The notes below the pieces were generated by a model that saw only the letters and a program-made list of their open reading frames with translations, had not been told where the DNA came from and made no database searches. From IMG/VR virus record IMGVR_UViG_3300036760_000325, positions 1 to 20,592 of that record: DNA of 20,592 bases, one strand, 5' to 3'. Below, one piece after another: positions 1,504 to 17,990 of the stretch. The position numbers and the translations under genes are program-made. How positions within the stretch are numbered: the first letter of the stretch is position 1; each line of letters begins with the position of its first letter. The stretch comes from a virus.

Positions 1504-2130
1504 ATGGCAAAATTTGAAGATCTAATGGGTAGAGTTTTTGGAAAACTTACGGTTCTACGAATGGGAGAGAGGGATAAGTACAATAACATTCGTTGGCTTT
1601 GCTTATGCGAATGTGGTAGAGAAACCTCACCTAGATCTAATGCTTTGACTACAGGTAAATCAACCTCCTGCGGTTGTTATGGCAGGACTAGATTAGCTCT
1701 GGGCCGGGAAAAACACGGGCTATCCAAGCACCCCTTGTATAGAGCCAGAGTTGCTGCCATTCAACGTTGTTATAATGTAAAAGATCCTAATTTCATCCTT
1801 TATGGTGGACGAGGAATAAAGGTAGATTCCATATGGCTAGAAAGTACGGTTGCGTTTATCGAGTGGGGATTAGAGAATGGTTGGGAAAAGGGATTGGATC
1901 TGGATAGGATAGATAATGACGGTGATTATACTCCGAATAACTGCCGGTTTATTTCTCACAGACAGAACTCAGGAAACACCAGAATTCAAAAGAACAGAAA
2001 TCTACCTGTTGGTGTAAGAAAGTTGAAAAATAGATTTACAGCCCACATAAACTTGGGCTCTTTTCTTACATCAGAAGAGGCTACTTTAGCTTATCTTTCC
2101 GCACTAAGGAAGTTGGAAATTGACAGCTAA
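1504..2130 (+). CDS. putative free-standing homing endonuclease, HNH-type with AP2-like C-terminus
   Basis: A 208-residue protein. Residues about 5-55 hold a small domain with GRVFGKLTVL and a Cys pattern (CLCECG ... SCGC) that probably binds zinc. The middle has YGGRGIKVDSIWLES and LDRIDNDGDYTPNNCRFIS, the signature I know from phage HNH-type endonucleases. The last 45 residues (LPVGVRKLKNRFTAHINLGSF ... EEATLAYLSAL, spanning about 162-205) resemble an AP2 DNA-binding domain. Such genes usually sit between host genes as selfish homing elements and cut alleles lacking them. Here it separates two structural genes. ATGs at 1492 and 1501 are alternative starts, but GGAGG fits the one at 1504. 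The nuclease call rests on these motifs; the target is unknown. Confidence 0.75.
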   Translation: MAKFEDLMGRVFGKLTVLRMGERDKYNNIRWLCLCECGRETSPRSNALTTGKSTSCGCYGRTRLALGREKHGLSKHPLYRARVAAIQRCYNVKDPNFILYGGRGIKVDSIWLESTVAFIEWGLENGWEKGLDLDRIDNDGDYTPNNCRFISHRQNSGNTRIQKNRNLPVGVRKLKNRFTAHINLGSFLTSEEATLAYLSALRKLEIDS

Positions 2131-2149
2131 CTGCTGAGGAGGATAAACC

Positions 2150-4270
2150 GTGGTATACAATAGGTTTACCTATAATTCAGCGCTTTTCAATTCCGGAAGA
2201 GACGAAGCTGGCAGTGTTATACGTTCAATTATACAAGCCCATACAGGACCTCACATTCAGGCAGTTGTTGGTGCTGACCCCCGTCCTAACGCCACACAAG
2301 ATGGCATTTCTTTTATCTCTGACTTTGACATCACCGAAGGCACGATAAAGAAGCCACCTACCAGTTTCAACTTTCCTGATCTTCAAGCGCGTGTCAACGC
2401 AGTCAAGACGAATAGTGATTTACTCCTGGCGATCATTTTTGGTCAGGCTGCTCGAGATCTACCTGCCGCTATCTATCTAACGAATCGTATTCCTGATCTT
2501 CCCGCCTCGATTTTTGCTTTGCTTCAGACAGATCTTGGTGCTGACATCTTTGGTACGTTCATGTACAAAGACCTCCTGGCGTCTATCCTCGCGCGTCCTA
2601 TCTTTACTGATGATCTTCCCACGCGCATCAACCTCCTCTACCCTCATGATCTTCGTGGGCGTATTACTGGTCAGACTGGTGGAAATCTTGGTGCTATCAT
2701 TTGGTCTCCCAAGGATCTCTCGGCAAGTATCGCTATTACCTTTGGTGATAACCTCACAGCCTCCGTTTTGGGTATGTCATTCAAGAACCTTCCTGCCAGA
2801 ATGTTGGGTATTCCAGGCCCTTCTTTCCGCGCATTCATTCGAGGCTCTGCCAGCGCGACAGACGACTTGCCGTCGATCGTTCATCTTCTGAATGAGAGTC
2901 CCGATCTTCCTGCCAGTATCAATCCTACCTATCCGGGTCCGAACGATTTCCTTGCTGACATAACTGCGATCGGACATCACGATAACATGTCTGCGGTTAT
3001 CCTCAGTGCTTTTCAAGGTGTGGATAATCTAGGGGCTCTTATCAAGACAGGCGGAGAAGTTGATCTTCCGGCGATCATAGATTTTCTGGGCGCTCTGAAC
3101 ATTACAGCGACTATCGGCACTATTCCTTTCGGTGTTCGCAACAGAGAACTACCTGCTTTTGCGCAAAGTGTTCATCCGGCAGATCTGGGCGCTGTTATGA
3201 CTATCAACCGTAATACGGCATTCTTGGGTGCGTTTATCGAAGCTCTCAGCGATACCAAGGATCTTGGTGCTTTTATTCGGGCGGCAGAAACTTTCATTAC
3301 CGCCATCTTTACCGTAAGCACCATGTCTGCTAGAAATTTGCGGGCGGTTATTGGAAGACCAGAATGCGACGGCGGAAGTGCTATCAAAGAACTATCCGCC
3401 ACCGCTATAGCCAAGAACGCAAAGAACCTCCTTGCTATTATTACTTCCTTTGCCCAACACGAACTCGGCGCCAGTGTAAATACCTCCAACATCATCCACG
3501 CCATGGATGTGATCAATGTACGATACTCTTCTCGAAGAGATAAGAAGACCAAGGTTCTTCGTAGCACTGATTCAATTGCTATTAGATACTCCCCTTTCCG
3601 TGGAAAGAACTTGGGCGCTGCGATCACGGGAACATTGACATACAAGGATCTGAATGCTCGAGTAGCCGCAGGCTTCCCTCTTCCACGTGTTGTTCCTACC
3701 CTCTCCCGTTTGACCGCCGCAGATTTGAGAAACGGCGGAGAAAACCTAAACATTCAAGAGATCAGACTACAACTGGAAGGCCGTCTGGTAGAGTTCATCT
3801 ATGTGAATGGTACAGATGATGCCTTTATCCGCGATTCAGAAGAGCAGTGGCGCATCAATGTACGTTCTTTCCAGCCCATTGCGGCTAACTTGTTTGGAGA
3901 CTTTGCCGTAGCCAGAATTTGTCGGCGGGGAGACATTCAATCCTTTGCCACTATTGACGCAGCCGTAAGGGCTTGTATCAGCATGGTTCTTGGACTTGAA
4001 GGGCAGTTAGAACTTGGTGCCAGTATTACGCCTACTGGTGGTTTCAAGGGCTTGCGCGCGTTGGTGGGAGTAAGTGATACTTACGATGATCTCCGTGCCA
4101 CTGCTGGAAGAGTTTTCCCCTCTGATTTTGGCGCTAACATAGCCCCCACGGGTCAAATAAATGAGCTCATCGCGACGGTGGTTGGCGTGGGACAGGACGC
4201 TTCTGATCTAACCGCATCTATTTACCAAGAATCCGAGGGCAGCCTAATAGCCAGTATTACTGGCGTGTAA
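2150..4270 (+). CDS. 706-residue repeat protein, probable virion structural protein
   Basis: Starts at GTG, eight bases after GAGGAGG. From residue 77 almost the whole protein is built of units beginning (D/N/E)-L-(G/P/x)-A-x-(I/V), such as DLPASI, NLGALI and ELGASV, repeated every 12-14 residues. I count about 38: 29 between residues 77 and 443, two at 487 and 500, seven from 621 to 703. The small-residue/hydrophobic alternation suggests one beta-strand per unit and a solenoid or stacked-sheet fold. Residues 454-488 hold a basic insert with two similar pieces (INVRYSSRRDK and IAIRYSPFRGK), and about 535-615 look globular. No signal peptide or membrane segment is seen. A fibre or tail role is inferred from neighbours and fold; I do not recognise a named family. 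Confidence 0.65.
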   Translation: MVYNRFTYNSALFNSGRDEAGSVIRSIIQAHTGPHIQAVVGADPRPNATQDGISFISDFDITEGTIKKPPTSFNFPDLQARVNAVKTNSDLLLAIIFGQAARDLPAAIYLTNRIPDLPASIFALLQTDLGADIFGTFMYKDLLASILARPIFTDDLPTRINLLYPHDLRGRITGQTGGNLGAIIWSPKDLSASIAITFGDNLTASVLGMSFKNLPARMLGIPGPSFRAFIRGSASATDDLPSIVHLLNESPDLPASINPTYPGPNDFLADITAIGHHDNMSAVILSAFQGVDNLGALIKTGGEVDLPAIIDFLGALNITATIGTIPFGVRNRELPAFAQSVHPADLGAVMTINRNTAFLGAFIEALSDTKDLGAFIRAAETFITAIFTVSTMSARNLRAVIGRPECDGGSAIKELSATAIAKNAKNLLAIITSFAQHELGASVNTSNIIHAMDVINVRYSSRRDKKTKVLRSTDSIAIRYSPFRGKNLGAAITGTLTYKDLNARVAAGFPLPRVVPTLSRLTAADLRNGGENLNIQEIRLQLEGRLVEFIYVNGTDDAFIRDSEEQWRINVRSFQPIAANLFGDFAVARICRRGDIQSFATIDAAVRACISMVLGLEGQLELGASITPTGGFKGLRALVGVSDTYDDLRATAGRVFPSDFGANIAPTGQINELIATVVGVGQDASDLTASIYQESEGSLIASITGV
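2378..4258 (+). repeat. coding array of ~38 degenerate 12-13-codon repeats (D-L-x-A-x-I)
   Basis: The array covers residues 77-703 of the 706-residue protein. Unit starts at residues 103, 116, 128, 141, 155, 167, 179, 189, 201, 213, 225, 239 and 252 show the 10-14-residue spacing. It is broken at about 444-486 by a basic segment and at about 506-620 by a non-repeat region. Repeats are degenerate at the DNA level, though GATCTTCC- and GATCTTGGT-like pieces recur. Confidence 0.8.
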
Positions 4271-4287
4271 ATTTCCAGGAGACTTGA

Positions 4288-4881
4288 TTGATAAAGACAT
4301 GTAAAAAATGCGGCACGGCAGATTGGACTCCGGGCGGCCGCTGCCGGCCGTGCGCTCGAGCACATAGTGCGAAGTGGCTGAAAGATAATCCAGATAAAGC
4401 ACGAGCACATAATACAAAATGGCGTTTGGTTAATACAAATAAGGCGTACGCGCTCACTAGAAAATGGGAAGCAACTAATTCGGATCGAGTGCGTGCGACC
4501 AAGGCTAGATGGGAAGCTAATCACCCAACTTACTATGCCGATTATATCAGAAATCGCTGCAAGGCAGATGTCCGATTTCGCCTCAGACGTAACCTACGTG
4601 AACGATTGCGTCAGGCTATCAAAGGAAATTTCAAAACAGGTTCTGCCGTCGCAGATCTGGGTTGTTCTATCCCGGAACTTAAGCTACATTTAGAAAACCA
4701 GTTTCAACCAGGGATGTCCTGGGAAAACTACGGAGAATGGCACATAGATCACATAAGGCCTTTAGCGAGTTTCGATTTAGCCGATAGAGAGCAATTCCTA
4801 CAGGCTTGCCATTTCAGCAATCTACAACCGCTGTGGGAGGAAGATAATAGGAAAAAAGCTGACAAGTACTTGCCAAGCTGA
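4288..4881 (+). CDS. HNH homing endonuclease with N-terminal zinc finger and KW repeats
   Basis: A 197-residue protein starting at TTG, six bases after AGGAG. The N-terminus has a CxxC...CxxC zinc finger (C5, C8, C19, C22). Residues 29-75 contain four units opened by K/R-W at exactly 15-residue spacing (29-30, 44-45, 59-60, 74-75), basic and helical, probably DNA-reading modules. The C-terminal HNH nuclease has HIDHIRPL (H152, D154, H155), NLQPLW (N178) and DNRKKAD (N187, K189), all catalytic positions present. It is probably a selfish mobile gene between the structural genes and the replication operon, and likely active. A GC-rich 15-bp sequence shared with the first gene of the window encodes part of the zinc finger. 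Confidence 0.88.
   Translation: MIKTCKKCGTADWTPGGRCRPCARAHSAKWLKDNPDKARAHNTKWRLVNTNKAYALTRKWEATNSDRVRATKARWEANHPTYYADYIRNRCKADVRFRLRRNLRERLRQAIKGNFKTGSAVADLGCSIPELKLHLENQFQPGMSWENYGEWHIDHIRPLASFDLADREQFLQACHFSNLQPLWEEDNRKKADKYLPS
4334..4348 (+). repeat. GC-rich 15-bp repeat, copy 2
   Basis: Exact copy of the 15-mer at 671-685, lying in the zinc-finger codons of the HNH gene and read in a different frame from copy 1. Confidence 0.35.
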
Positions 4882-4922
4882 CCGTTGCGACAAAGGTGTC
4901 TATTTGGCTATAACTTTTTCCT

Positions 4923-4950
4923 TGCTTTTTTTGTGAATACCTCTTATACT
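4923..4950 (+). promoter_or_regulatory. candidate sigma70-type promoter for the replication operon
   Basis: TTGCTT (4923-4928) and TATACT (4945-4950) are separated by 16 bases in an AT-rich part of the 129-base gap before the sliding clamp gene. This is the largest gene-free stretch in the window and lies where late-type structural genes give way to replication genes, so a promoter is expected here. The -10 box is one base from consensus; the -35 box matches only its TTG. Confidence 0.45.
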
Positions 4951-4984
4951 TTCTGCAAGCCCAGAGGCAGGGTATTTCCCCCGC

Positions 4985-5004
4985 CCAATTATCGGGTATT
5001 GGAG
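4985..5004 (+). promoter_or_regulatory. clamp-gene ribosome site within a small possible hairpin
   Basis: GGAG (5001-5004) lies six bases before the ATG at 5011 and fixes that start; upstream in-frame codons to a TTG at 4885 encode a non-homologous leader. CCAAT (4985-4989) can pair with ATTGG (4998-5002) over an eight-base loop, which would cover part of the ribosome site. Translational control is possible, but the stem is short. Confidence 0.35.
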
Positions 5005-5010
5005 AAACAG

Positions 5011-6171
5011 ATGAAGTTTACCATCACTGCTCAAGATTTGAAGCGGGCGTTGAACACCTGTAATGAAATTGCGCCCGTAAGTTCAGCGATCGCTGAAGAA
5101 AAGACTGGTGTTCTGCTGCGAACTAACGGAAATTCCGTGGTATTTATGGCGTTTGATGACACCTCTTATGTTCGCGTGGAAGTTCCTGCCGAAGTTCAAG
5201 ACCCAGGTGAGGCGCTGGTGCGCTGTGTGGCAATCACTACGCAAGTCAATGCGTCCTATACGGATGTAGGATTTGACGGGGAGCCCAACCAAATTAAGGT
5301 GGAGACTACTTCGAAGGGAACCCTTCATTTGGTAGGAACCAATCGTGTGCGAGCAGGCACCAACCTTCCCACCAAGAGAAACCTTGCCCTATTGAACGCA
5401 GGTTTCTTCGTAGAGACCCCCGTTTTTAATAGCGCCAAGGCAACTCACTTCCCAGCCTTCCAGTTCATGGATGGTTTGGCAAAGGTGAGCCACGCCGCCT
5501 CCAAAGACAACTCCAAGCTCCACTTCAATTGTATCAGCCTCTCCCTAGGAGACGCGGAAGTGGTATTCGCTGCAACTGATGGTATCCAAATTGCTGAGTT
5601 CAAGAAAGCCGCTGAAGTCAAAGGACTTCGCGGCTCTTTTATTTTAGGGCTAAAGTTTGCCACCGTTGCTGCCAAATTGGTCAATCCGGGTAAGTTTGAT
5701 ACCGTGGACATCTATGTGGAGGACGAGAAGTTCTTCCTGAAGAGCGGCGGTACGGTTCTGGTGGGCACTCTGCTAAACACCGCGTTCCCGAAGTACGAAC
5801 CTTACATGGAAACTAAGGCGCTTTTGCGAGCCACTTTCCCCACGGAGGACTTCCTGTCCATCCTACAGGGAATTCTGCCGTCGGTAGATGCCAAGAGCCA
5901 CAGAATGGTTTTGGCAGCTGAGAAGGCTGGAAACGCCATCGTATCCACCTCCAGCATTACAGGTGAAGCAGAGAGTTCTGGGCTCGTCGTAGAGACCCCA
6001 GAAGACTTCACCCTTCACTTTGATAGCACCCTGCTTCATAACGCTATTCGGCAGCTGAAGGGGGGCCACTTTGAGTTCTACTTCACAAATGATGCCAAAG
6101 GGGTAGTGCTCAAGTCTCAGAAGGACGACGACTTCAAAGCCTTCGTCTGTACCCTGAAGAAAGTAGATTAA
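5011..6171 (+). CDS. dnaN-like: DNA polymerase sliding clamp (DnaN/beta-type)
   Basis: A 386-residue ring-clamp subunit that would encircle DNA and tether the phage or host polymerase. The start MKFTITAQDLKRAL matches the beginning of bacterial beta clamps. Other family signs are ATDGIQIAEF (residues 188-197, the ATDG-x-R/Q-L/I-A strand), FPKYEPYM (259-266, as FPdY in beta clamps) and a C-terminal strand ending CTLKKVD, like the M-P-x-R-L end of DnaN. The length is close to the bacterial 366-380, fitting three clamp domains and a dimeric ring rather than the two-domain T4 gp45 type. It opens the replication operon and is followed after two bases by an unknown gene. Divergence from bacterial clamps is considerable, so client preference cannot be told. 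Confidence 0.85.
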   Translation: MKFTITAQDLKRALNTCNEIAPVSSAIAEEKTGVLLRTNGNSVVFMAFDDTSYVRVEVPAEVQDPGEALVRCVAITTQVNASYTDVGFDGEPNQIKVETTSKGTLHLVGTNRVRAGTNLPTKRNLALLNAGFFVETPVFNSAKATHFPAFQFMDGLAKVSHAASKDNSKLHFNCISLSLGDAEVVFAATDGIQIAEFKKAAEVKGLRGSFILGLKFATVAAKLVNPGKFDTVDIYVEDEKFFLKSGGTVLVGTLLNTAFPKYEPYMETKALLRATFPTEDFLSILQGILPSVDAKSHRMVLAAEKAGNAIVSTSSITGEAESSGLVVETPEDFTLHFDSTLLHNAIRQLKGGHFEFYFTNDAKGVVLKSQKDDDFKAFVCTLKKVD

Positions 6172-6173
6172 GA

Positions 6174-6716
6174 ATGCTCTTCTTTGATGAGCAAGAAGCC
6201 ATCAAAGAACTCCAGAGTAGAGGTTACAGGGTGGTCAAAGAAGACTATCCCGATGCCGGATCAATAAATACTCTGCGGGAACTGGTGGATTACTTCTATA
6301 GTCGCCGCAGATTTTACAACCCTGATCGTAAGTTTCCCTATAGCATTGACTATACTGAGGATGTGAAGACTCTGAGCACTTTTATCAGGTCCCGTCAAAA
6401 ATTGGGGCTGGGTAGAAAAGACGCTGTTCGGGAAGCAGCAATCCTTGTAGATGCTATGTTCCGCTTTGAAAAGCAAATGAAGCTGCGAGAGCCTATAATC
6501 AGTCCTACTCTTCTATCCCAAGCGTGGGCAATGGACAAGGTATGCTCCTTTATGAATGGAGAAGTGGCGGAAGCGGGAGAATACGATACAGAGCTCTATC
6601 TCAATGAGGTAAATGAGTATTACAACAAGAAGAATGCCGCCAAGGACTTTGAAAGAGCGGCCCAAGAGCGGAAGAAAATACTGGAGAGACTGAATGAGCA
6701 CAAAGAAAGAGAATGA
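6174..6716 (+). CDS. unknown protein between clamp and RecA
   Basis: A 180-residue, highly charged, soluble protein that I do not recognise. Its ATG is two bases after the clamp stop codon and its end overlaps the recA start by 23 bases, so it is translated as part of the operon. The first 45 residues contain YRVVKEDYPD and Tyr/Arg-rich YFYSRRRFY. Residues 70-125 are helical, and the last 45 (YNKKNAAKDFERAAQERKKI and beyond) look like a coiled coil or long basic helix. No catalytic motif, Cys cluster, signal peptide or membrane segment is visible. The position suggests a role in replication or recombination, perhaps as an adaptor or loader, but that is a guess from context. Confidence 0.75.
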   Translation: MLFFDEQEAIKELQSRGYRVVKEDYPDAGSINTLRELVDYFYSRRRFYNPDRKFPYSIDYTEDVKTLSTFIRSRQKLGLGRKDAVREAAILVDAMFRFEKQMKLREPIISPTLLSQAWAMDKVCSFMNGEVAEAGEYDTELYLNEVNEYYNKKNAAKDFERAAQERKKILERLNEHKERE

Positions 6717-7785
6717 AGCCCGTCTCGGGGTAGTGACCAAATCAATAGAGAAAGAGTATGGGCACGTAATCAAATGGCTGGGAGAGGCAGCGGCAATAAC
6801 GAGGGAAGTAATACCGACCGGCTGTATTGGACTTGATAATGCTATTGGAAAAGGGGGATTTGAAAGGGGATTGACCGCTGAGTTTTTCGGAGTAGGCGGA
6901 GCCGGAAAGAGTTTCCTCGGTTATAGCATCATAAAGCAAGCAACTCTCCAAGGACATAAGTGTGCTATCATCGATGCCGAGAACTCCTTGGATCCCAATC
7001 TTCTTATCAATGTGGGTCTTCCAGCGGACATGGTTTTGGTGGTCGATGGTGCCCCTACGGGAGAAGCTAACCTCCAGATCGCTGATAATCTGATGGCTAC
7101 TGGAGACTTCGCGGTCGTTATGATTGACAGCGTCGCTGCTCTCATCCCAGAAAGCCGGGTCGAGAATGACTATGATCAACAGACTATGGGTCTCCACGCG
7201 AGACTGATGAGCGCCGGCCTCCAGAAGATCGTGCCCGTCGCCAAGAAGACCAATACCCTTTTGCTTTTCATCAATCAGATCCGAAACAAGATTGGAGCCT
7301 ATGGAAATCCCCAAACTACAACTGGCGGGGAGGCCCTGGGTTTCTATGCTTCTTATCGGGTCGAGGTGATGGGTAGCCCTCAGAGCAAATCCCGTCGCCT
7401 TCAAGACGAAGGAACTGGTGAGGTTTATGGGCACCGAACTACCTTTCGTGTAGTCAAGAACAAACGAAACGCTCCCTACCGAGAAGCTGAGGTAGATCTC
7501 ATCTACGGAATAGGGTATGATAACGTCGGAGAGATTATCGATCTCGGTGCCGACACGGGCATCATCGAAAAGGGCGGCGCTTGGTTGAACTACAAAGAGC
7601 ATAAGTGGCAGGGTAGAGGTGCTGCCAAACTTGCTCTCATGGGAAACACAGAGCTTCGTGATGCTATCGAAAAGAGCATTCGTTCTGTGATTTCTGGTGA
7701 GGTTGTAGAAGTACCTGTTGCTCCAAAGGAAGATACACCTGATGATAAGCCTGCTAGCCAAAAGCGTACGAGAGACGCTAAATAG
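6694..7785 (+). CDS. recA: RecA/UvsX-type recombinase
   Basis: A 363-residue strand-exchange ATPase that forms filaments on single-stranded DNA. It has an altered Walker A, GVGGAGKS (66-73; bacterial RecA has GPESSGKT), IIDAENSLDP with the catalytic Glu at 96, Walker B VVMIDSVAAL (141-150), QQTMGLHARLMSAGLQK (162-178), LFINQIRNKIG (191-201) and the L2-side TTTGGEAL (208-215). It resembles bacterial RecA more than T4 UvsX in these motifs. The C-terminus is short and Lys/Asp-mixed rather than strongly acidic. ATG has GGAGAG six bases ahead and overlaps the gene before. The next gene starts inside its 3' end. It would serve phage recombination-dependent replication and repair with the nucleases nearby. 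Confidence 0.95.
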   Translation: MSTKKENEARLGVVTKSIEKEYGHVIKWLGEAAAITREVIPTGCIGLDNAIGKGGFERGLTAEFFGVGGAGKSFLGYSIIKQATLQGHKCAIIDAENSLDPNLLINVGLPADMVLVVDGAPTGEANLQIADNLMATGDFAVVMIDSVAALIPESRVENDYDQQTMGLHARLMSAGLQKIVPVAKKTNTLLLFINQIRNKIGAYGNPQTTTGGEALGFYASYRVEVMGSPQSKSRRLQDEGTGEVYGHRTTFRVVKNKRNAPYREAEVDLIYGIGYDNVGEIIDLGADTGIIEKGGAWLNYKEHKWQGRGAAKLALMGNTELRDAIEKSIRSVISGEVVEVPVAPKEDTPDDKPASQKRTRDAK

Positions 7786-8092
7786 CGCGTTCCCGAATAC
7801 GCTCGTCAAGGAAGAGGAATACATTCCCTATAAAGGGCAGAAACTCTTCTTTGACTTTTATTTACCCACCCTCCACATTTATGTAGAGGTTCAGGGTATC
7901 CAGCACACGGAGTTCAACTCCCATTTTCATGGCGACGCTGCTGCTTTTCGCGCCGCTAAAAAGAGAGACCTACTAAAGAAAGAGTGGTGCAGTCTGAACG
8001 ACGTCACCCTCGTATGTATCAACTACGATGAGATCCCTATTTCTGTAGCAGATCTCTTGCGTAAAGTTTCGGAGGCTCAACAGAATGGATGA
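7742..8092 (+). CDS. Vsr-like PD-(D/E)XK nuclease domain protein
   Basis: A 116-residue protein. The ATG at 7742 overlaps recA by 44 bases and follows AAGGAAG; a TTG at 7718 would add eight residues. The core FFDFYLPTLHIYVEVQGIQH (36-55) gives the D-x(10)-E-x-Q pattern of the PD-(D/E)XK nuclease fold (D38, E49, Q51) with a following His. Then come FRAAKKRDLLKKEWC and VTLVCINYDEI, the layout I know from Vsr-like (very-short-patch-repair-type) nucleases. It would cut DNA, perhaps processing recombination intermediates or mismatches, given recA next to it. It is a bare nuclease domain without an added DNA-binding module. Active-site residues appear present; the substrate is unknown. Confidence 0.7.
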   Translation: MISLLAKSVRETLNSAFPNTLVKEEEYIPYKGQKLFFDFYLPTLHIYVEVQGIQHTEFNSHFHGDAAAFRAAKKRDLLKKEWCSLNDVTLVCINYDEIPISVADLLRKVSEAQQNG

Positions 8093-8567
8093 TCGTATCC
8101 GCAATAGACTATTAGAAACATCAACCGCTCTATCTCTATACTCTGCTACTTCTCCATCTGAAGTAGAGGACATCTTCAATTTCAAACCAGCGGTGGACAT
8201 GGATGCGACGAACTCGCAAGTCCTTTCCCGCTATACCATTATTCTTGCTCAGTATCTTATTACCCTCCAGGTGCGATACAATACCGCTCGAGTTATTGCT
8301 GGTCAAAAGAAGAAGGTTCTGGATCGCAAGGTCTACGACCTGCTAAAGACCGACGCTGTGGAAGGTAAGACCCTGAAGGAAAGGGAAGCCAACGCTATCT
8401 CCTCCTCTCCGGAGCTTCAAGGGTTGGAACTGGATTATGACGAGGCTTCCGCGGAGAGAGATCTTTTGGAAGGTTTGGATAGTCCCATTACAGAACTTAT
8501 CAATGCCTTGAAGTCAGAGGTGCGCAGACGCGCAGAGGAACGCCAGTACAGCCGAGAAAGAGTTTAA
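8085..8567 (+). CDS. unknown helical protein, possible recombination mediator
   Basis: A 160-residue protein whose ATG overlaps the nuclease gene by eight bases, with GGAGG nine bases ahead. It is predicted mostly helical. Residues 44-85 (LSRYTIILAQYLITLQVRYN, then a Lys-rich stretch) and 115-155 (LDYDEASAERDLLEGLDSPI, then ALKSEVRRRAEE) look like two antiparallel helices. A helix, basic stretch, K-T-x-K-E-R-E-A stretch and second helix also occur in UvsY-like recombination mediators beside phage recA/uvsX genes. I see no decisive motif, so this is a position- and shape-based suggestion. A coiled-coil structural or loader role is equally possible. Confidence 0.7.
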   Translation: MDDRIRNRLLETSTALSLYSATSPSEVEDIFNFKPAVDMDATNSQVLSRYTIILAQYLITLQVRYNTARVIAGQKKKVLDRKVYDLLKTDAVEGKTLKEREANAISSSPELQGLELDYDEASAERDLLEGLDSPITELINALKSEVRRRAEERQYSRERV

Positions 8568-9998
8568 ATGGACCTGTCAAAAGCCAAGGAACTCTTTGCG
8601 CAAACCGGCATGGAGGCTGCGGTTCTGGCTTGCGTATTCAAAGATCCTACCAACTACTTTGAAGTAGAGGCTAAGCTGGCGGAAAATGATTTCCTGCGGG
8701 AACATCATCGTGCCCTTTGGACCATTGTTCGAACGTTGGTACGAGAAGGCATCACCAGCATTGACACTGCTGCTATTCTGAACCAAGCGGGGATCCTGTC
8801 GTTAGAGAAAGAGATTGGTGGGTATGATTACATCACTGCTCTCTTTGATAAGAACATTGATCCTTCCAACATCGACTTCTACATTCAACGGGTTTCGGAT
8901 GCCAGCACCAAGTTGAAGGTGCTCCGTGCGACGACCGAGATTGCTGAACTAACAGAGCAGAACAAATCCCTTACGGGAGAGACCCTTACAGCTTCGGATC
9001 TTGTGGAGCACGCCCAACAGAAGTTCCTACAGATCTCTATCGAAGCCCAGAAGAGCGAAGACGCAGTAAACATCGCTACTGGTATTGACGAACTTCTCGC
9101 GGAGGTTACCGCTGCCCCAACGGATGTGCGAGGTCTTCCTACCGGCTTTCAGATACTGGACAAGGCCGTCAATGGTTTGGAACCCGGAACGCTCACGGTA
9201 TTAGGTGCGCGACCCAAGACCGGCAAGTCTGCGATCCTTTTGAACTGGGCAAAACACATCGCGTATACTGCGCACGCTCCTATCCTCATCATCGATACGG
9301 AAATGAGTAAGCGTGAGCAGCAGTTCCGCCTACTCTCCGTCTTGTCCAGCGTTCCCGAAAGAGAAATCAAGAATGGAACCTTTTATCAGAATGACGAACA
9401 GCGCCATGCGGTAGAGCAAGCTAGGGTTATTCTCGATAGTGGTCTCATTCTTCACAAGTACTATCCTGACTTTACTCCCGAGGGAGTTGCCGCGCTGACG
9501 AGGAAGTACTACTATCAGCACGGTGTTCGTTGCCTGATTTTCGATTATATCAAACTTCCCGATGCTGATCTGCAGATGATGAACAACGTGAAGGAGCATC
9601 AGGCATTGGGGTTTCTGTGTGTGGCTTTGAAAAACTTGGCGGGACAACTACAAATACCCGTCATTACCGCAGCGCAAATTGGTCGAGGCGGAGCAAACAA
9701 GGGGCATGTCAATTCCTCTGAGTTCGCAGACAGCGATCGTATTCTACGCTACGCAAACACTCTTCTTGGTCTTTCCGCCAAGACCAAGGATGAGTTTATT
9801 AAACTGGAAGAGAAGTATGGACGAGATACCGCCCGGAACATGGGCACCCATCGTCTCCAAATTCTTGATGCTCGCGCCGGCGGAACTAACTTCACAGGCA
9901 TCGACCTGTACTTCCGTAAGGAAATAATTACGCTGTCTGAAGCACAGCAGCAGCTCACAGATTTGATGAAGAGCGAGGAGGCTTCTGAAAATGATTGA
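8568..9998 (+). CDS. dnaB: DnaB-type replicative helicase
   Basis: A 476-residue hexameric 5'-3' fork helicase. The N-terminal DnaB domain (about 10-115) starts with GMEAAVLACVFKDPTNY, as in DnaB proteins. After a linker comes the RecA-fold motor: GLPTGFQILDKAVNGLEPG (189-207), Walker A GARPKTGKS (213-221), TEMSK (244-248, the E of the bacterial SLEM motif), Walker B RCLIFDYIKL (321-330) and AAQIGRGG (368-375) with the H4 Gln. ATG follows the preceding stop codon directly, with only AAAGAG ahead, implying translational coupling. With the primase two genes on, it would form the phage primosome. No intein is present, although phage DnaB is a frequent intein host. Confidence 0.94.
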   Translation: MDLSKAKELFAQTGMEAAVLACVFKDPTNYFEVEAKLAENDFLREHHRALWTIVRTLVREGITSIDTAAILNQAGILSLEKEIGGYDYITALFDKNIDPSNIDFYIQRVSDASTKLKVLRATTEIAELTEQNKSLTGETLTASDLVEHAQQKFLQISIEAQKSEDAVNIATGIDELLAEVTAAPTDVRGLPTGFQILDKAVNGLEPGTLTVLGARPKTGKSAILLNWAKHIAYTAHAPILIIDTEMSKREQQFRLLSVLSSVPEREIKNGTFYQNDEQRHAVEQARVILDSGLILHKYYPDFTPEGVAALTRKYYYQHGVRCLIFDYIKLPDADLQMMNNVKEHQALGFLCVALKNLAGQLQIPVITAAQIGRGGANKGHVNSSEFADSDRILRYANTLLGLSAKTKDEFIKLEEKYGRDTARNMGTHRLQILDARAGGTNFTGIDLYFRKEIITLSEAQQQLTDLMKSEEASEND

Positions 9999-10443
9999 TT
10001 TTACCCAGCTACGTGATGTGTCCATTATAATTGGCATAGTTGCATCTTTTGGTGGTTTGTCTTATGTTTATTACACGAACGAGAAAGTCCGCAATGTAGT
10101 AAAGAAGATTCTTCCGTTTCTGCCTATGGTCCTGGGATTTTTTGCTGGGCGAATCAAAGATGAAAAGGGCGTATTTGACCTTCACGATTTCGTAACACTC
10201 ATGGGCAGGGTGAGTGAGAGATTACGTGCAACCTTTAACGATGTTTCCAACTTGGAATTTGACGATGTACAGGACGAAGTGTTCGCGATCGTGTCCGAGG
10301 AACTGAAGCGCTACCGAGAGGCTGGAGTTAAGAATGTTCCCAACGTATCCGATGCGACCGTAAGACAGCAAGTTAAGCTCGTGTTCGAAGCTATCAAGAG
10401 GGTAACAAGTGAAAATCCAGCCGGAGATGATTCACAGAGTTAA
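9991..10443 (+). CDS. membrane-anchored protein of unknown function
   Basis: A 150-residue protein whose ATG overlaps the helicase by eight bases, with GAGGAGG nine bases ahead. Residues about 10-28 (VSIIIGIVASFGGLSYVYY) form one membrane helix. Residues 40-53 (KILPFLPMVLGFFAG) are hydrophobic and could be a second crossing or a re-entrant segment. The remaining 95 residues are soluble and charged. The topology recalls phage holins of the LLH type (N-terminal helix, charged tail), but lysis genes rarely lie between helicase and primase genes. A membrane anchor for replication is an alternative. Both are inference; only the membrane segment is seen directly. Confidence 0.75.
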   Translation: MIDFTQLRDVSIIIGIVASFGGLSYVYYTNEKVRNVVKKILPFLPMVLGFFAGRIKDEKGVFDLHDFVTLMGRVSERLRATFNDVSNLEFDDVQDEVFAIVSEELKRYREAGVKNVPNVSDATVRQQVKLVFEAIKRVTSENPAGDDSQS

Positions 10444-11422
10444 GCAGGGCGTCGATGCAGAGGCTGTTCTTCTCCACCTTGGTTTCCATGTAGTTCGTCG
10501 AGGGGCAAAAGAACTCCGAGGTCCTTGTAAGGTTCATGGTGGAGATAACCCAACTGGTTTTAGGTTCAACTTGGAAACCCGAACATGGTGCTGCTATACT
10601 CGTCATTGCGAAGGCGAAAATGATAGAGATCTTGTAGGATTGGTGCAACGGGTAACCGGGCAATCCTTCACTCAAAGTGTTCAGCTTTTAGCCGACATTG
10701 CTGGTGTAAATCTGAACAACCAGGATGACTTTTCCGCAGAGTATCTGAAGTTAAAGCAACAGCGGGAAATCGATAAGGAAATCCAGCAAGCCGCCAAGGC
10801 AAAAGAGATCGATACTGGTTCCTATTCAGAAGAAGTCGTCGAAGAAATGATGAAGAAGAGAAGTGATTACTTCATCAATAGAGGCTTTCCTAAAGACCTG
10901 CTTGACTTTTTTCAAGTGGGTGGAATGACAGATGGTAAAGGTGTTCATAGGGAAACCATTCCTATTCGAGATCCAGAAGGCAACGTTCTAACGATCAGCG
11001 CCAGACGGACAGATAGTGATGAAGACCCTAAGTATATTCTGGTAAAGAATGTGCCTAAAGGAATTACCCTATACAACTTGGATGTTGCTAAAGAGTATGT
11101 GGGATTACCTCGTACTCTTATCTTGGTTGAAGGTTTCGTAGATGTTTGGACTTTGGCTCTTCACGGGGTATGGAACACCGTAGCCGCAATGGGCACAGGT
11201 CTGACGTCAAGGCAAGCGCAATTACTTTCGATTTATTCAGATGAAGTTGTTCTAATGTTGGATCCGGATGAAGCCGGGCAACAAGCAATGGATAGGGCGG
11301 AGAAGCTATTAAGCTTCTATGTATCGGTGAAGCCACTAAGGTTGCCTCCGGACAAGGACCCTAAGAATTTCACACATGCTGATATTCAGCACTATTTTGG
11401 AGGATACATACATCATGACTGA
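10409..11422 (+). CDS. dnaG-like: DnaG-type primase, compact
   Basis: A 337-residue RNA primase starting at GTG (with GAGGG just ahead), overlapping the membrane protein gene by 35 bases. The N-terminal zinc site is of CHC2 type: C40-x2-H43 and then C61/C62 and C67 (WCCYTRHC), irregular beside the usual CxxC. A linker of charged helix (108-150) follows, then the catalytic core with a Toprim domain: LILVEGFVDVW (E241) and VLMLDPDEAG (D285, D287), the metal-binding residues. It ends about 50 residues after the Toprim Asp pair, so the C-terminal helicase-binding domain of bacterial DnaG (about 580 residues in all) is absent. It probably works with the DnaB-type helicase upstream and the SSB downstream. 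Confidence 0.9.
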   Translation: MKIQPEMIHRVKQGVDAEAVLLHLGFHVVRRGAKELRGPCKVHGGDNPTGFRFNLETRTWCCYTRHCEGENDRDLVGLVQRVTGQSFTQSVQLLADIAGVNLNNQDDFSAEYLKLKQQREIDKEIQQAAKAKEIDTGSYSEEVVEEMMKKRSDYFINRGFPKDLLDFFQVGGMTDGKGVHRETIPIRDPEGNVLTISARRTDSDEDPKYILVKNVPKGITLYNLDVAKEYVGLPRTLILVEGFVDVWTLALHGVWNTVAAMGTGLTSRQAQLLSIYSDEVVLMLDPDEAGQQAMDRAEKLLSFYVSVKPLRLPPDKDPKNFTHADIQHYFGGYIHHD

Positions 11423-12577: not shown

Positions 12578-13384
12578 TTGAAGGATTATTACAACCTGCT
12601 GGGTGTTGAAAGGGATGCTGACGAGAAGGCAATCAAGAAAGCCTATCGTGTGCTTGCCAATGAATGGCATCCTGATAAACACCAAGTAGATGGAGAAGAA
12701 CAGAGAAAGGTTGCGGAGGAGAAATTCAAACAGATCTCCGAAGCCTACTCTGTTCTCTCCGATCCAGAGAAGAAAGCTAACTATGATCTTTCGGGCGATC
12801 CTTCCGGTATCAACTACGGATTTAGAACCCACGGAGATCCGATGGAGTTCATGCGCAATTTTGGGAACTTCTCTTTTAGAAGGGAACCAAGACAGCCTCA
12901 GTCAGCACGAGGACAGGGAGTACAGCTGGGATTAGAACTGGGACTTGCCGAAGCTTTATTCGGCGCCGAGAAGAATTTTCAATACTCAACAAACTCTCCG
13001 TGTGATGTCTGTGGAACTAAAGGCGGAACAGAATTCCAAACTTGCTCCGAATGTAAGGGCGCGGGGCATATTGTTCGACAAGAACCCAACATGATCCTTC
13101 AAAGTACCTGCACTGCTTGTCGAGGGCAAGGACAAAGGATTAGTAAGACTTGCGACCCTTGCCAGGGACGAGGTATTGTTTCCGAAGAAAGACAGATCAA
13201 TGTTCAAATTCCCCCTGGTCTTCATAATGGTTCCATCCTTCGTATAGCTGGGGCGGGGGGTAGGGGTTTCAACGGAGGCGCCCCGGGAGATGTAATGCTT
13301 CAGATCTCCGTTAGGTATCCCAGCCTCGAGCAATTGACGGAAGAAGAGAAGGCTCAACTTCACGGGTTGCTCTCGAAGGCATAG
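12578..13384 (+). CDS. dnaJ-like: DnaJ-type co-chaperone, shortened
   Basis: A 268-residue J protein starting at TTG, eight bases after AAAGG. The J domain (1-70) is complete, with HPD at 31-33 (EWHPDKH), so it should stimulate a DnaK ATPase. A short G/F-like linker (72-115) follows, then four CxxC zinc motifs: CDVCGTKG (142), CSECKGAG (156), CTACRGQG (178), CDPCQGRG (192). After these comes a single beta-sandwich segment, VQIPPGLHNGSILRIAGAGG, then directly the usual C-terminal helix (LTEEEKAQLHGLL). Bacterial DnaJ (about 375 residues) has a second substrate domain here; it is missing. It probably recruits host DnaK for phage protein folding or remodelling of replication complexes, as lambda uses DnaJ/DnaK; that is inference. 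Confidence 0.92.
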   Translation: MKDYYNLLGVERDADEKAIKKAYRVLANEWHPDKHQVDGEEQRKVAEEKFKQISEAYSVLSDPEKKANYDLSGDPSGINYGFRTHGDPMEFMRNFGNFSFRREPRQPQSARGQGVQLGLELGLAEALFGAEKNFQYSTNSPCDVCGTKGGTEFQTCSECKGAGHIVRQEPNMILQSTCTACRGQGQRISKTCDPCQGRGIVSEERQINVQIPPGLHNGSILRIAGAGGRGFNGGAPGDVMLQISVRYPSLEQLTEEEKAQLHGLLSKA

Positions 13385-15245: not shown

Positions 15246-15426
15246 GGAATTAGGCAATCCGCGCATCGCGATTGAATTGAAAGATGGCGGAAAGATGTTT
15301 GGCGAGGTAGATAAGTTCACCAATTATACCATCTACGTAAAGAATAAATACGGGGACGTATTGGATGTGCCCCGCAGGATCATTAAGAGGGCATTACTCT
15401 TGATTAACGGAGGAAAAGGAAAATGA
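15223..15426 (+). CDS. small Sm/Hfq-like protein
   Basis: A 67-residue protein overlapping the nuclease gene by 23 bases and the glycosyltransferase gene by four (ATGA). The start is uncertain: ATG 15223 is preferred because the recognisable part begins soon after; ATG 15196 would add nine residues, and neither has a clear ribosome site, so coupled translation is likely. IAIELKDGGKMFGEVDKFTN (15-34) followed by YTIYVKN fits the Sm1 pattern (hydrophobic strand, D/N-G, K-x-x-G, F-x-N/Q). DVPRRIIKRALLLI (48-61) would be the Sm2 strand pair, with VPRR where Hfq has YKH. The fold call is from the pattern. If right, it may form a ring and bind RNA. Confidence 0.55.
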   Translation: MKTKAQLEELGNPRIAIELKDGGKMFGEVDKFTNYTIYVKNKYGDVLDVPRRIIKRALLLINGGKGK

Positions 15427-17990
15427 GCAATCAGCAACCCGAGTTTCTAAAGCGAATCAATCTCGCTGGTGAAAAGAAAAAGAGCAAGATTATTTTCTAC
15501 GGAGACTCTCCAACCTGCGCAACAGGCTTTGGTCAGGTCTCTCGCAACATTCTGCCGGCGCTCCACGCTTCCGGGCGTTTCGAAGTGGACATCCTTGGTA
15601 TTAACTATTGGGGGGACCCACACGAATACCCCTTCAAGATCTGGCCGATGGCGATCAATAACCAGCGGGACCCCTATGGACGTCAACGCCTTCAGCAGCA
15701 CCTCCACGATCCCCGCCTAGAGTACGACATCTTATTCTTCCTTCAGGATACTTTCATTCTTGATTTCCTACCCAATCTTATCGCTTCTTTGAAGCAGGCT
15801 GGGAAGCAATTCAAGAGCGTATTCTACTACCCTGTGGATGGTATCCCCAAGAAGGAGTGGATTGACGCTGCGAATTGCGTAGATTACCCGGTAACCTATT
15901 CTCAGTTTGCGCACAACATGTCCTCTATGGTAGTTCCAGCGATTGGTGAGCGCTTGCAGATCATGCCGCACGGGGTAAATCCTAAGGTATTCTTCCCTGT
16001 ACCCGCTGCAGAGATTAAGCAGTTTCGAGAGCAGTTCTTTGGAACTATGTCGAACCGCTTCATCATTACCAACGTCAATCGAAACCAACAGCGTAAGGAC
16101 ATTCCTGCCACCATTCGTGCCTTCAAGGAATTCCAGAAACAGCGACCTGAAAGCCTTCTCTATCTGCACATGGCGGCCCAAGACCAGGGTTGGAACCTTC
16201 CAGAGGTTATCAAGGCGTTTGATCTGGATATCACCAAGGATGTTATTCTGCCTCAGAACTTCTCCCCGTCCACCGGTTTCCCGTTGAACATTCTGAACCT
16301 GATCTATAACGCCAGCGACGCTGTCATTAGTACTACCGTTGGCGAAGGTTGGGGTCTTTGCGTAGATGGAAATACTCGTATAGCCACCACCAAAGGCTTT
16401 CATCCGATTAATAGCCTGCAGACTGGTGATCGTGTAGTGTTGGGAGGCAAAGAACATCGTATTCGCGGTGTTTCTTCCGCCCCGAAAAAAACAGCTTATA
16501 GTGTGAAACTTTTTGGTAATCAGGAACTTATTGGAACCTACGAGCACAAAGTTCCTACCTATAATAGAGGCTATGTTCCTCTGGGAGAAATAACCACAGA
16601 CGACTGGCTTGTTGTAGACAAGGCGGTGCTTTCCGAAGACCAAGATTACATTTACGACCTGTCTACCTTTGCAGATAATCACGATGAGTATTATGTTTGG
16701 AATAGGATGGGTTTCAGTTCCAAGCCCGTACATAGTATAACCTCCATAATGTCGGAATTAGGAGAGACCAAAAAGATTGTAGAAACTGCTCTGAAGGTCT
16801 ATCTGGATAACCAGGCCACAGCGAGTAGCAGGGTTATCCGTGTGGTGGCGCATCTTGCGAACATCGGATATGAACGACCCCGTGTTTTGATTCCTCGACA
16901 CATTAGATTCAATTCTGATTTTGCTCGACTTTTAGGATACTACACTGCCGAAGGTAGTAATGAAAATGGGGTTGGCATAGAATTTGATTTCCATAAGAAA
17001 GAAACCGAATACCATTCTGATGTTCAGGATCTTATGTACAAGTTCTTTGGTTTGAAAGCGGATGTAAGGATAAGAGAAAATAAATTTGAACTTCGTTATC
17101 GCTCCTCCATTTTGGCTAAACTATTTGGCGAACTATGTGGAATTCATGCCCTTCACAAGCACATTCCTCTTCTATGCCTTCAGCACAAAAATAAAGCCAA
17201 AGAGTTTCTAAAGGCGTTCTGGTATGGAGACGGGCATTATGAGAAGAATGAGTTAAGTTTCTGTACCGCTTCTCCTCAGCTGAAAGAGGAGATCATGTGG
17301 CTGCTTACTGGTTTTGGTGTTTTTTCCAAATCCAACTTTAAAGGGGCGGGTAATGGTTCTTGGAACATTTATGTAAATGGAGAAGACTACAACCTGCTCG
17401 CAGAGATTTTTGATCTTTCCAATAGACACGACACTTTCAAAACCAGACCTTACGTCAAGAAAGAAAAGGACTGCTTTCTGGTGAAGGTCAAAGAAGTAAG
17501 CAAATTTATTCCTTCCAAGGACCAGTTATTTTGGGACATAAGTGTAGAAGGCAAAGAACACTTTGTAGCCAATGGTATCGTGATACATAATTCTTGGACT
17601 GAGGCTATGGCTTGTAAGGTTCCTGTTATCTTCCCGAACAACACGTGCCTGGGTGAATACATCACCGAGGAGACCGGTTATCCCTACGCCAGCGGACAGG
17701 ACGCCGATCACATCACGGTTCTTCCGAACGATAACGAAGTTCCTCGTCCGACTGCGCACATCAACGAAGTAGTCGCCCGCCTGCTACAAGTTCACGATGA
17801 CCGAGATGAGGCAAAGAAGCGTGCAGAAAATGCTTACAAGATGGTCATGAACAATCTTGTATGGGATAAGCACATCAATCCTCGTTGGTTGGCTATGTTT
17901 GATCAGATTATAGCGGAAGCTAATCGCCCCTATGCTCCTTCACAGGGCAACAACCTGGCACGCCCTGTTCTTAAGGGAGATCTACTCTAA
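15423..17990 (+). CDS. GT4-like glycosyltransferase precursor interrupted by an intein
   Basis: An 855-residue precursor: N-extein 1-312, intein 313-723, C-extein 724-855. The joined 444-residue enzyme is a GT-B-fold glycosyltransferase. FYGDSPTCATGFGQVSRNIL (25-44) is the N-terminal G-loop, MPHGVNPKVF precedes the donor domain and NRNQQRKDIPATIRAFKEF (226-244) the phosphate-binding Arg/Lys strand. The intein lies between L312 and S724, so splicing builds EGWGLSWTEAMACKVPV, the GT4 E-x7-E motif (E308, E727). Before splicing the enzyme should be inactive. ATG overlaps the Sm-like gene by four bases. It probably transfers a nucleotide-sugar-derived sugar; the neighbouring glycosyltransferase and epimerase genes fit a glycan pathway, while the acceptor (virion, DNA or host surface) is unknown. 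Confidence 0.92.
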   Translation: MSNQQPEFLKRINLAGEKKKSKIIFYGDSPTCATGFGQVSRNILPALHASGRFEVDILGINYWGDPHEYPFKIWPMAINNQRDPYGRQRLQQHLHDPRLEYDILFFLQDTFILDFLPNLIASLKQAGKQFKSVFYYPVDGIPKKEWIDAANCVDYPVTYSQFAHNMSSMVVPAIGERLQIMPHGVNPKVFFPVPAAEIKQFREQFFGTMSNRFIITNVNRNQQRKDIPATIRAFKEFQKQRPESLLYLHMAAQDQGWNLPEVIKAFDLDITKDVILPQNFSPSTGFPLNILNLIYNASDAVISTTVGEGWGLCVDGNTRIATTKGFHPINSLQTGDRVVLGGKEHRIRGVSSAPKKTAYSVKLFGNQELIGTYEHKVPTYNRGYVPLGEITTDDWLVVDKAVLSEDQDYIYDLSTFADNHDEYYVWNRMGFSSKPVHSITSIMSELGETKKIVETALKVYLDNQATASSRVIRVVAHLANIGYERPRVLIPRHIRFNSDFARLLGYYTAEGSNENGVGIEFDFHKKETEYHSDVQDLMYKFFGLKADVRIRENKFELRYRSSILAKLFGELCGIHALHKHIPLLCLQHKNKAKEFLKAFWYGDGHYEKNELSFCTASPQLKEEIMWLLTGFGVFSKSNFKGAGNGSWNIYVNGEDYNLLAEIFDLSNRHDTFKTRPYVKKEKDCFLVKVKEVSKFIPSKDQLFWDISVEGKEHFVANGIVIHNSWTEAMACKVPVIFPNNTCLGEYITEETGYPYASGQDADHITVLPNDNEVPRPTAHINEVVARLLQVHDDRDEAKKRAENAYKMVMNNLVWDKHINPRWLAMFDQIIAEANRPYAPSQGNNLARPVLKGDLL
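16359..17591 (+). mobile_element. intein 1 (LAGLIDADG type), in the E-x7-E motif
   Basis: A 411-residue in-frame intein with C1 and the A block CVDGNTRIATTKGFHPINSL. The B-block T-x-x-H is GTYEH (T60, H63). The homing endonuclease has two LAGLIDADG helices, LLGYYTAEG (191-199, E198) and FLKAFWYGDG (283-292, D291), both with their acidic residue. A segment at about 125-150 (HSITSIMSELGETKKIVETA) looks like a DNA-binding helix pair. The end is EHFVANGIVIHN followed by Ser as the first C-extein residue, so all splicing residues (C1, H63, H410, N411, Ser+1) are present. Rows 16921-17100 inside it hold 64 G+C of 180 against 96 of 180 in extein rows 16081-16200 plus 17701-17760, so it is more AT-rich than its host gene. 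Confidence 0.93.

Follow-up and report, generated by a model that had tools for sequence, protein, structure and literature searches.

A tandem array of 15-residue units between the zinc ribbon and the core of a phage HNH endonuclease, a probable DNA-contact arm

What does a regular tandem repeat do between the zinc ribbon and the catalytic core of a small phage nuclease? This question is raised by ORF 4288-4881 of the IMG/VR record IMGVR_UViG_3300036760_000325. The window, i.e. the whole stretch of DNA analysed in this study, comprises 20,592 nt (positions 1 to 20,592 of that record). A preliminary description of this ORF had proposed that each repeat module could read a few bases, so that repeat number might set the target length. 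The features of the gene and its product are listed in Table 1.

Table 1. Features of the HNH endonuclease gene and its surroundings in the window.
Feature	Position	Strand	Remarks
Segment occupied here and empty in a relative (688 bp vs 43 bp in L159)	4272-4959	+	alignment with L159
AGGAGA, upstream of the ORF	4277-4282	+	
HNH endonuclease ORF, free-standing	4288-4881	+	TTG start, 197 aa; PHROG phrog_1035, E 1.9e-16
Zinc-ribbon-like head, C5xxC8...C19xxC22, residues 5-22	4300-4353	+	sequence
Array unit 1, residues 29-43, KWLKDNPDKARAHNT	4372-4416	+	modelled helix break at N34
Array unit 2, residues 44-58, KWRLVNTNKAYALTR	4417-4461	+	modelled helix break at N49
Array unit 3, residues 59-73, KWEATNSDRVRATKA	4462-4506	+	modelled helix break at N64
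Array unit 4, degenerate, residues 74-88, RWEANHPTYYADYIR	4507-4551	+	modelled helix break at H79
Cryptic fifth unit, residues 89-103	4552-4596	+	D94 at the Asn position; runs into core helix 95-112
HNH (beta-beta-alpha) nuclease core, residues 120-197	4645-4878	+	H152, D154, H155, N178, N187

The 15-residue repeat of the window protein is real. Translation from TTG 4288 confirmed the pairs of a basic residue and tryptophan that had been described (K29-W30, K44-W45, K59-W60 and R74-W75), and residues 29-75 correspond exactly to the positions given for them, 4372-4512. The motif N-x-(D/N)-(K/R), which was thought to follow each pair, is present in units 1-3 (N34-P-D-K, N49-T-N-K, N64-S-D-R), with the Asn four residues past the Trp, and absent from unit 4 (H79-P-T-Y). 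Between residues 25 and 88 the mean BLOSUM62 autocorrelation was 1.39 at lag 15, 1.06 at lag 30 and 0.02 or less at the remaining lags from 5 to 29, and in 20,000 shuffles a value of 1.39 was never attained at lags 5 to 30. These shuffles contained no case of four [KR]W pairs at equal distances and 26 cases of four W at equal distances. The DNA of the units is dissimilar (17-26 of 45 bases identical between units), and the family profile introduced below scores three of the four units above its threshold, unit 2 falling below. Residues 29-88 carry a net charge of +8. The repeats also join a CxxC zinc finger to the HNH core, as had been claimed, and are true modules between zinc ribbon and core.

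In the core, W145 to H152, D154, H155, N178 and N187 are invariant among 31 aligned sequences including that of the window, and the window model has the beta-beta-alpha order (strands 151-155 and 179-183, helix 184-190). Taken together, invariants and model give the protein the HNH nuclease motif of a free-standing HNH homing endonuclease, while its Pfam HNH score of 11.5 bits lies under the 21.4-bit cut-off. The PHROG family is annotated as 'endonuclease VII'; the Endonuclease_7 profile (PF02945) did not match the window protein at E up to 1, and an NCBIfam scan gave a single match far under its cut-off. Sequence matches in the PDB, chiefly RecA fusions (E 6.6e-5 and weaker), were short, contained no stretch that passed alone, and were rejected as chance. 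Scans of the whole window with Rfam (gathering threshold) and for tRNAs were empty, and promoter or terminator matches near the ORF did not exceed the chance level.

The window protein was modelled with AlphaFold from 31 sequences (mean pLDDT 92.2, pTM 0.65), and the model contains one 14-residue helix per unit. The helices 20-33, 35-48, 50-63, 65-78, 80-93 and 95-112 are each parted from their neighbours by a single residue (N34, N49, N64, H79 and D94, i.e. at 5 of 5 unit places), and the pLDDT of the array block is 93-98. A PDB structure search with this model and with that of the 11-unit relative L083 gave no match at E up to 0.001. Structure matches in VIA were mainly between the HNH core and Cas9 or other HNH domains (maximum Z of 5.3), and BFVD yielded 41 matches at E up to 0.001, of which the named ones are phage and giant-virus proteins. 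In the L083 model, residues 1-39 could be aligned over 38 residues with the restriction enzyme Hpy99I (Z 4.8, rmsd 1.6 A), which is considered as a lead only. In a backbone constructed with one N-cap residue per unit (nine settings), neighbouring helices met at 98-133 degrees and each unit added a rise of 10.4-15.5 A; this backbone clashed at textbook angles and was not used as evidence.

The best explanation, to which we assign a probability of roughly 0.55 as a whole, is that ORF 4288-4881 is a homing-type, free-standing HNH nuclease gene whose product carries a basic helical DNA-contact arm, and that this arm and the zinc ribbon are swapped as one cassette. The N-terminal half of the protein consists of the zinc ribbon followed by a tandem run of 15-residue units. 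As sequence and model suggest, each unit would form a 14-residue basic helix, and the conserved Asn (or His/Asp) would close one helix and cap the next. The array would be laid along the DNA, and array and ribbon would carry or assist target recognition while the HNH core cuts. Because unit number changes over moderate divergence, it would tune reach or affinity and would not alone define the resident site. It is possible that the units read bases; basic charge and association with nucleases would be equally expected of a plain tether.

For a survey of viral relatives, 158 loci were collected: the window, 80 loci from viral contigs found with its protein and a further 77 found with the relative L005. 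An ORF with the core motif was present in 139 of the 158 loci, giving 112 distinct and 95 non-redundant proteins, in which units were called by an iterated 15-column profile. In total, 314 units were found (0 to 11 per protein). At least one unit occurred in 77 of the 95 relatives and at least two in 70; the other 18 scored zero units, and the family can thus do without the array. The unit consensus is [K/E]-[Y/W]-[Y/R]-x-[K/N]-N-[K/R/P]-[E/D]-K-[I/L/V]-x-[E/A]-x-x-[K/R], with Asn or His at position 6 in 96% of the units, Y, W, F or H at position 2 in 88%, and a mean net charge of +2.3 per unit. In cellular genomes, an insensitive peptide-pattern scan with one array retained 2 of 227 stretches as relatives. 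Three loci (L065, L071, L080) possess, by eye, a helix-turn-helix-like segment instead of the zinc ribbon ahead of the array. The L082 record (IMGVR_UViG_3300027792_000015), a 105 kb phage contig, contains four dispersed ORFs related to the window HNH gene, one with an internal stop and three with arrays (L001, L002, L005).

The spacing of the units is strikingly constant. Of the 237 gaps between neighbouring units in the 95 relatives, 191 measured 15 residues (30 residues in 14 cases and 26 in 12), while shuffled sets gave no gap of 15 in 100 rounds and one in a separate 5 rounds. The gaps other than 15 cluster at 26, 30 and 22 residues. A wider set of 123 distinct array ORFs, each required to show two or more gaps of 15 or 30 and hence biased to regular arrays, contained 547 gaps, of which 463 measured 15 and the others mostly 26 (24 cases), 30 (22), 22 (10) and 19 (5). 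In several of the 12 gaps of 26 among the non-redundant proteins, a unit of 11 residues is present, which lacks roughly one helical turn (clearest in L039, L119 and L154); the remaining gaps contain no unit-like filler. In the 61 ORFs with a zinc-ribbon pattern ahead of the array, the distance from the last zinc-ribbon Cys to the first Asn place was 12 residues in 35, 8 in nine and 16 in two. These steps of about one helical turn suggest that the facing of the side chains is kept while the length varies.

TALE and BurrH proteins consist of tandem helical repeats. Unlike these, the units described here have 15 residues and one helix each, and a paired hypervariable code position is lacking: at all 15 positions, identity within proteins was at least as high as between proteins (314 units), and no hypervariable, code-like pair of positions was found. 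The most variable position, both within and between proteins, is position 14.

The array is a self-standing module common to several phage nuclease families. A search with an array alone led to 76 viral loci, and all loci together contain 176 array ORFs, of which 123 are distinct. By a loose pattern, 82 of these have the family core and 41 do not, some of the latter being core variants. When 20 of the 41 were scanned with Pfam, three matched Endonuclease_7 and four matched Pfam HNH above the cut-off, while the remaining 13 matched no family up to its curated cut-off; array ORFs without a Pfam nuclease are present at L179, L183 and L217. The arrays of L083 and L160, scanned alone, matched no Pfam family at E up to 1. 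NUMOD1 and NUMOD3 models matched none of three array-holding records, but also none of 14 controls. Since the array precedes several nuclease types and two arrays lack a Pfam match, it resembles the NUMODs in its role as a module associated with nucleases, and it may be a very remote NUMOD itself. At L123 (2170-4309), an intein (Pfam Intein_splicing, E 8.9e-12) has an array HNH as its nuclease part, and its C-terminal block lies downstream in an overlapping frame. No description of this 15-residue array was found among the articles listed by the literature searches, as judged by their titles and the openings of their abstracts.

Evidence for exchange came from four Kolesnikvirus sequences (SeKF_13, Prophecy, Roscha1 and phi63_307). 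Between SeKF_13 and Prophecy, nucleotide identity is 96% at the N terminus, 62% in the zinc ribbon, 63% in the array and 98% in the core. The left edge of the diverged block is sharp (near codons 51-56), and the right edge is more gradual (about codon 197). Four-fold sites, although few, agree at 55 of 58 places outside the block and at 7 of 11 inside (p 0.01), which argues for exchange over relaxed selection alone. Roscha1 and phi63_307 have a common array and differ from SeKF_13 and Prophecy more strongly in the array (66% identity) than in the core (89-91%). Judged by these comparisons, the exchange of zinc ribbon and array as a cassette ahead of a constant core is demonstrated at this one isolate locus. 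The profile counts 8 units in SeKF_13, 7 in Prophecy and 5 each in Roscha1 and phi63_307; it misses an extra degenerate unit in Prophecy, so the difference between SeKF_13 and Prophecy is mainly one 11-residue unit.

A second case of array exchange is perhaps, and even likely, given by L121 and L136, whose cores share 82 of 97 residues and whose arrays share 22 of 71. Among 32 pairs with a core identity of at least 72%, which are not independent of each other, the array is more diverged than the core in 26, and in 6 its divergence does not exceed that of the core. Arrays may evolve faster than the core, so that divergence need not mean exchange outside the Kolesnikvirus locus and perhaps L121/L136. 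In a more far-reaching reading, ribbon and array would be a recombinationally exchanged target-recognition cassette and a tandem DNA-reading module undetected by Pfam, in which each helix contacts DNA, and phages would direct a constant HNH nuclease to new targets through exchange of arrays or recombination of the 45-base units. As a whole this reading is tentative and, in our estimate, unlikely.

Natural alleles with different unit numbers occur in the Flavobacterium elemo phages. A 6-unit allele (238 aa) and a 4-unit allele (204 aa) replace the same 22 bp of one empty record. The flanks of both alleles are 98.5-100% identical to those of the empty record, and the two ORFs are about 70-73% identical to each other, with gaps of 15 and 19 residues in the comparison. 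A seemingly identical leader precedes both alleles (L160, 2174-2275; L161, 2402-2503); the diverged part is the coding part. This leader contains the inverted repeats CCGCCAAG...CTTGGCGG and ACCCTCT...AGAGGGT followed by a T run, which perhaps serve as terminator or regulator. At the Kolesnikvirus locus, the alleles differ by array gaps of 11, 34 or 45 residues. Within the family, profile unit counts differ in 80% of 203 pairs at 60-70% core identity, in 13% of 38 pairs at 80-90% and in 5% of 40 pairs at 90% or more; the counts are mostly stable in the closest pairs, and gain or loss of units is thus not very fast. Several apparent differences in unit number were dropped: in L120/L122 the shorter ORF differs at its N terminus and has the same array, in L128/L139 the arrays align without a gap, which indicates a scoring effect, and in L110/L149, L035/L040/L147 and L074/L153 the gaps were not of clean unit length or only a single flank was shared.

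These alleles would also suit a passive basic spacer, in which the array only tethers the ribbon to the core, adds non-specific affinity and reads no bases. Different unit numbers at one site would be expected of such a tether, and so would the finding that variability within proteins exceeds that between proteins at no unit position, position 14 being variable in both. The linker of I-TevI, called a 'protein ruler' (PMC2988022, in the part of that article considered), provides a precedent. On the other hand, ribbon and array of SeKF_13 and Prophecy differ as one block, which is unexpected for an inert linker, and the spacings other than 15 lie mainly near whole helical turns, as if the facing of the side chains mattered. 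The spacer is therefore regarded as possible but somewhat unlikely.

Periods of 15 and 11 residues are those of right-handed coiled coils, and the array might accordingly be an oligomerisation rod that pairs with another copy. The steps of 15 and 11, the unit's modest amphipathic moment (P 0.03 on shuffling of positions) and the annotation of isolate ORFs as 'coil containing protein' agree with this. So does a helix in the L083 model (pTM 0.45), which runs unbroken from 132 to 205 through H146, H161, N176 and N191 and along which pLDDT drops from 97 to 76. However, the same model shows 8 of 12 expected breaks (every 15 residues from N41 to N131, and D206), the helix of the window model is broken at 5 of 5 places, and the units are strongly basic, which makes a coiled coil quite improbable.

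The proposal of a fixed few bases per unit, with a target length set by unit number, is most improbable. The near-identical tandem geometry, the basic helices and the block exchange would fit it, but 6 and 4 units stand at one base-exact elemo insertion point, arrays of clearly different length occupy one Kolesnikvirus locus (the insertion point being assumed to equal the target), and profile unit counts differ in four fifths of the pairs at 60-70% core identity. The earlier interpretation is supported in part: the units are true modules between ribbon and core and belong to an array found with several nuclease types, and ribbon and array can be swapped together, which would be expected of a recognition part. 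The preliminary description had also named variable spacing among homologues and a missing link to target recognition as grounds against its proposal; unit number indeed varies with no apparent connection to the site, but the spacing itself is strikingly constant, so that these grounds apply in part.

The gene with the probable DNA-contact arm is mobile. A search with the sliding clamp of the window led to one relative, L159, whose flanks match the window at 93.4% (2116-4271) and 99.7% (4960-11168), and ORF 4288-4881 lies inside the 688 bp that are reduced to 43 bp there. The gene is thus located in a replaced segment at a boundary of exchange, which is the pattern that the title of PMC10448857 names. 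Elsewhere, the L159 record contains one remote relative of the window HNH protein (E 1.4e-4). In the elemo phages, 68 records match the locus; among the 60 matches listed, five records carry the gene (four phages and a RefSeq copy) and 55 match in the flanks only, the empty junction having been read at base level in one record. Occupied and empty alleles are hence available for L159 (n=1) and for the elemo phages and, together with the intein of L123, support a putative homing role.

Further observations concern other genes of the window. A second HNH gene (1492-2130; phrog_374, E 5.3e-64) has no match anywhere in the whole L159 record, and the segment 801-2115, comprising this gene and ORF 813-1436, corresponds to about 10 bp in L159. 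Two adjoining ORFs (15423-17990 and 17990-20173) each possess a LAGLIDADG domain. The latter has glycosyltransferase domains as well, and the former matches Intein_splicing and, below threshold, a glycosyltransferase. The L159 copy of ORF 15423-17990 lacks residues 313-723, the two matches being adjacent, so the intein of this ORF, too, is present in one relative and absent from the other. Furthermore, a phage DnaJ with J, CXXCXGXG and C-terminal domains is encoded at 12578-13384, near genes for a single-strand-binding protein and a RuvC-like protein.

Several known systems are comparable. NUMOD-type regions beside nuclease domains contact long targets and, like the array, are short modules beside HNH or GIY-YIG domains (PMC3943268, in part); unlike them, the array is a long tandem series in which each unit is one helix of 15 residues. 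In T5orf172 homing endonucleases with repeated zinc fingers (CapR, DUF723, DUF4397), the consulted portion of PMC10448857 reports intragenic recombination, domain swapping between nucleases and genes that lie where exchanged segments end, as the gene studied here does. They share a repeated DNA-binding part with the proteins studied here, for which it is predicted, but in those enzymes whole zinc fingers repeat beside a T5orf172 domain (GIY-YIG subfamily), whereas here the HNH core is accompanied by a single zinc ribbon and helices of 15 residues. The I-HmuI-like HNH homing endonucleases of lactococcal Skunavirus likewise combine a constant HNH with a variable, presumed DNA-binding part and vary in presence across genomes; their variable part is C-terminal, and the section of PMC12724721 available mentions no tandem helical array. 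With regard to recombination endonuclease VII (PF02945), three Endonuclease_7 proteins carry the same array, whereas the window protein lacks that match.

Phage homing nucleases rely on their DNA-contact parts, and the array described here has no Pfam match in the two cases scanned alone. A tandem unit that is common to several nuclease families, holds its register of 15 residues and is swapped in one piece offers a clean system for the question of how targets change. The natural allele pairs, i.e. the elemo alleles with 6 and 4 units and the Kolesnikvirus alleles with a constant core and different arrays, make target change testable in vitro and in phage crosses.
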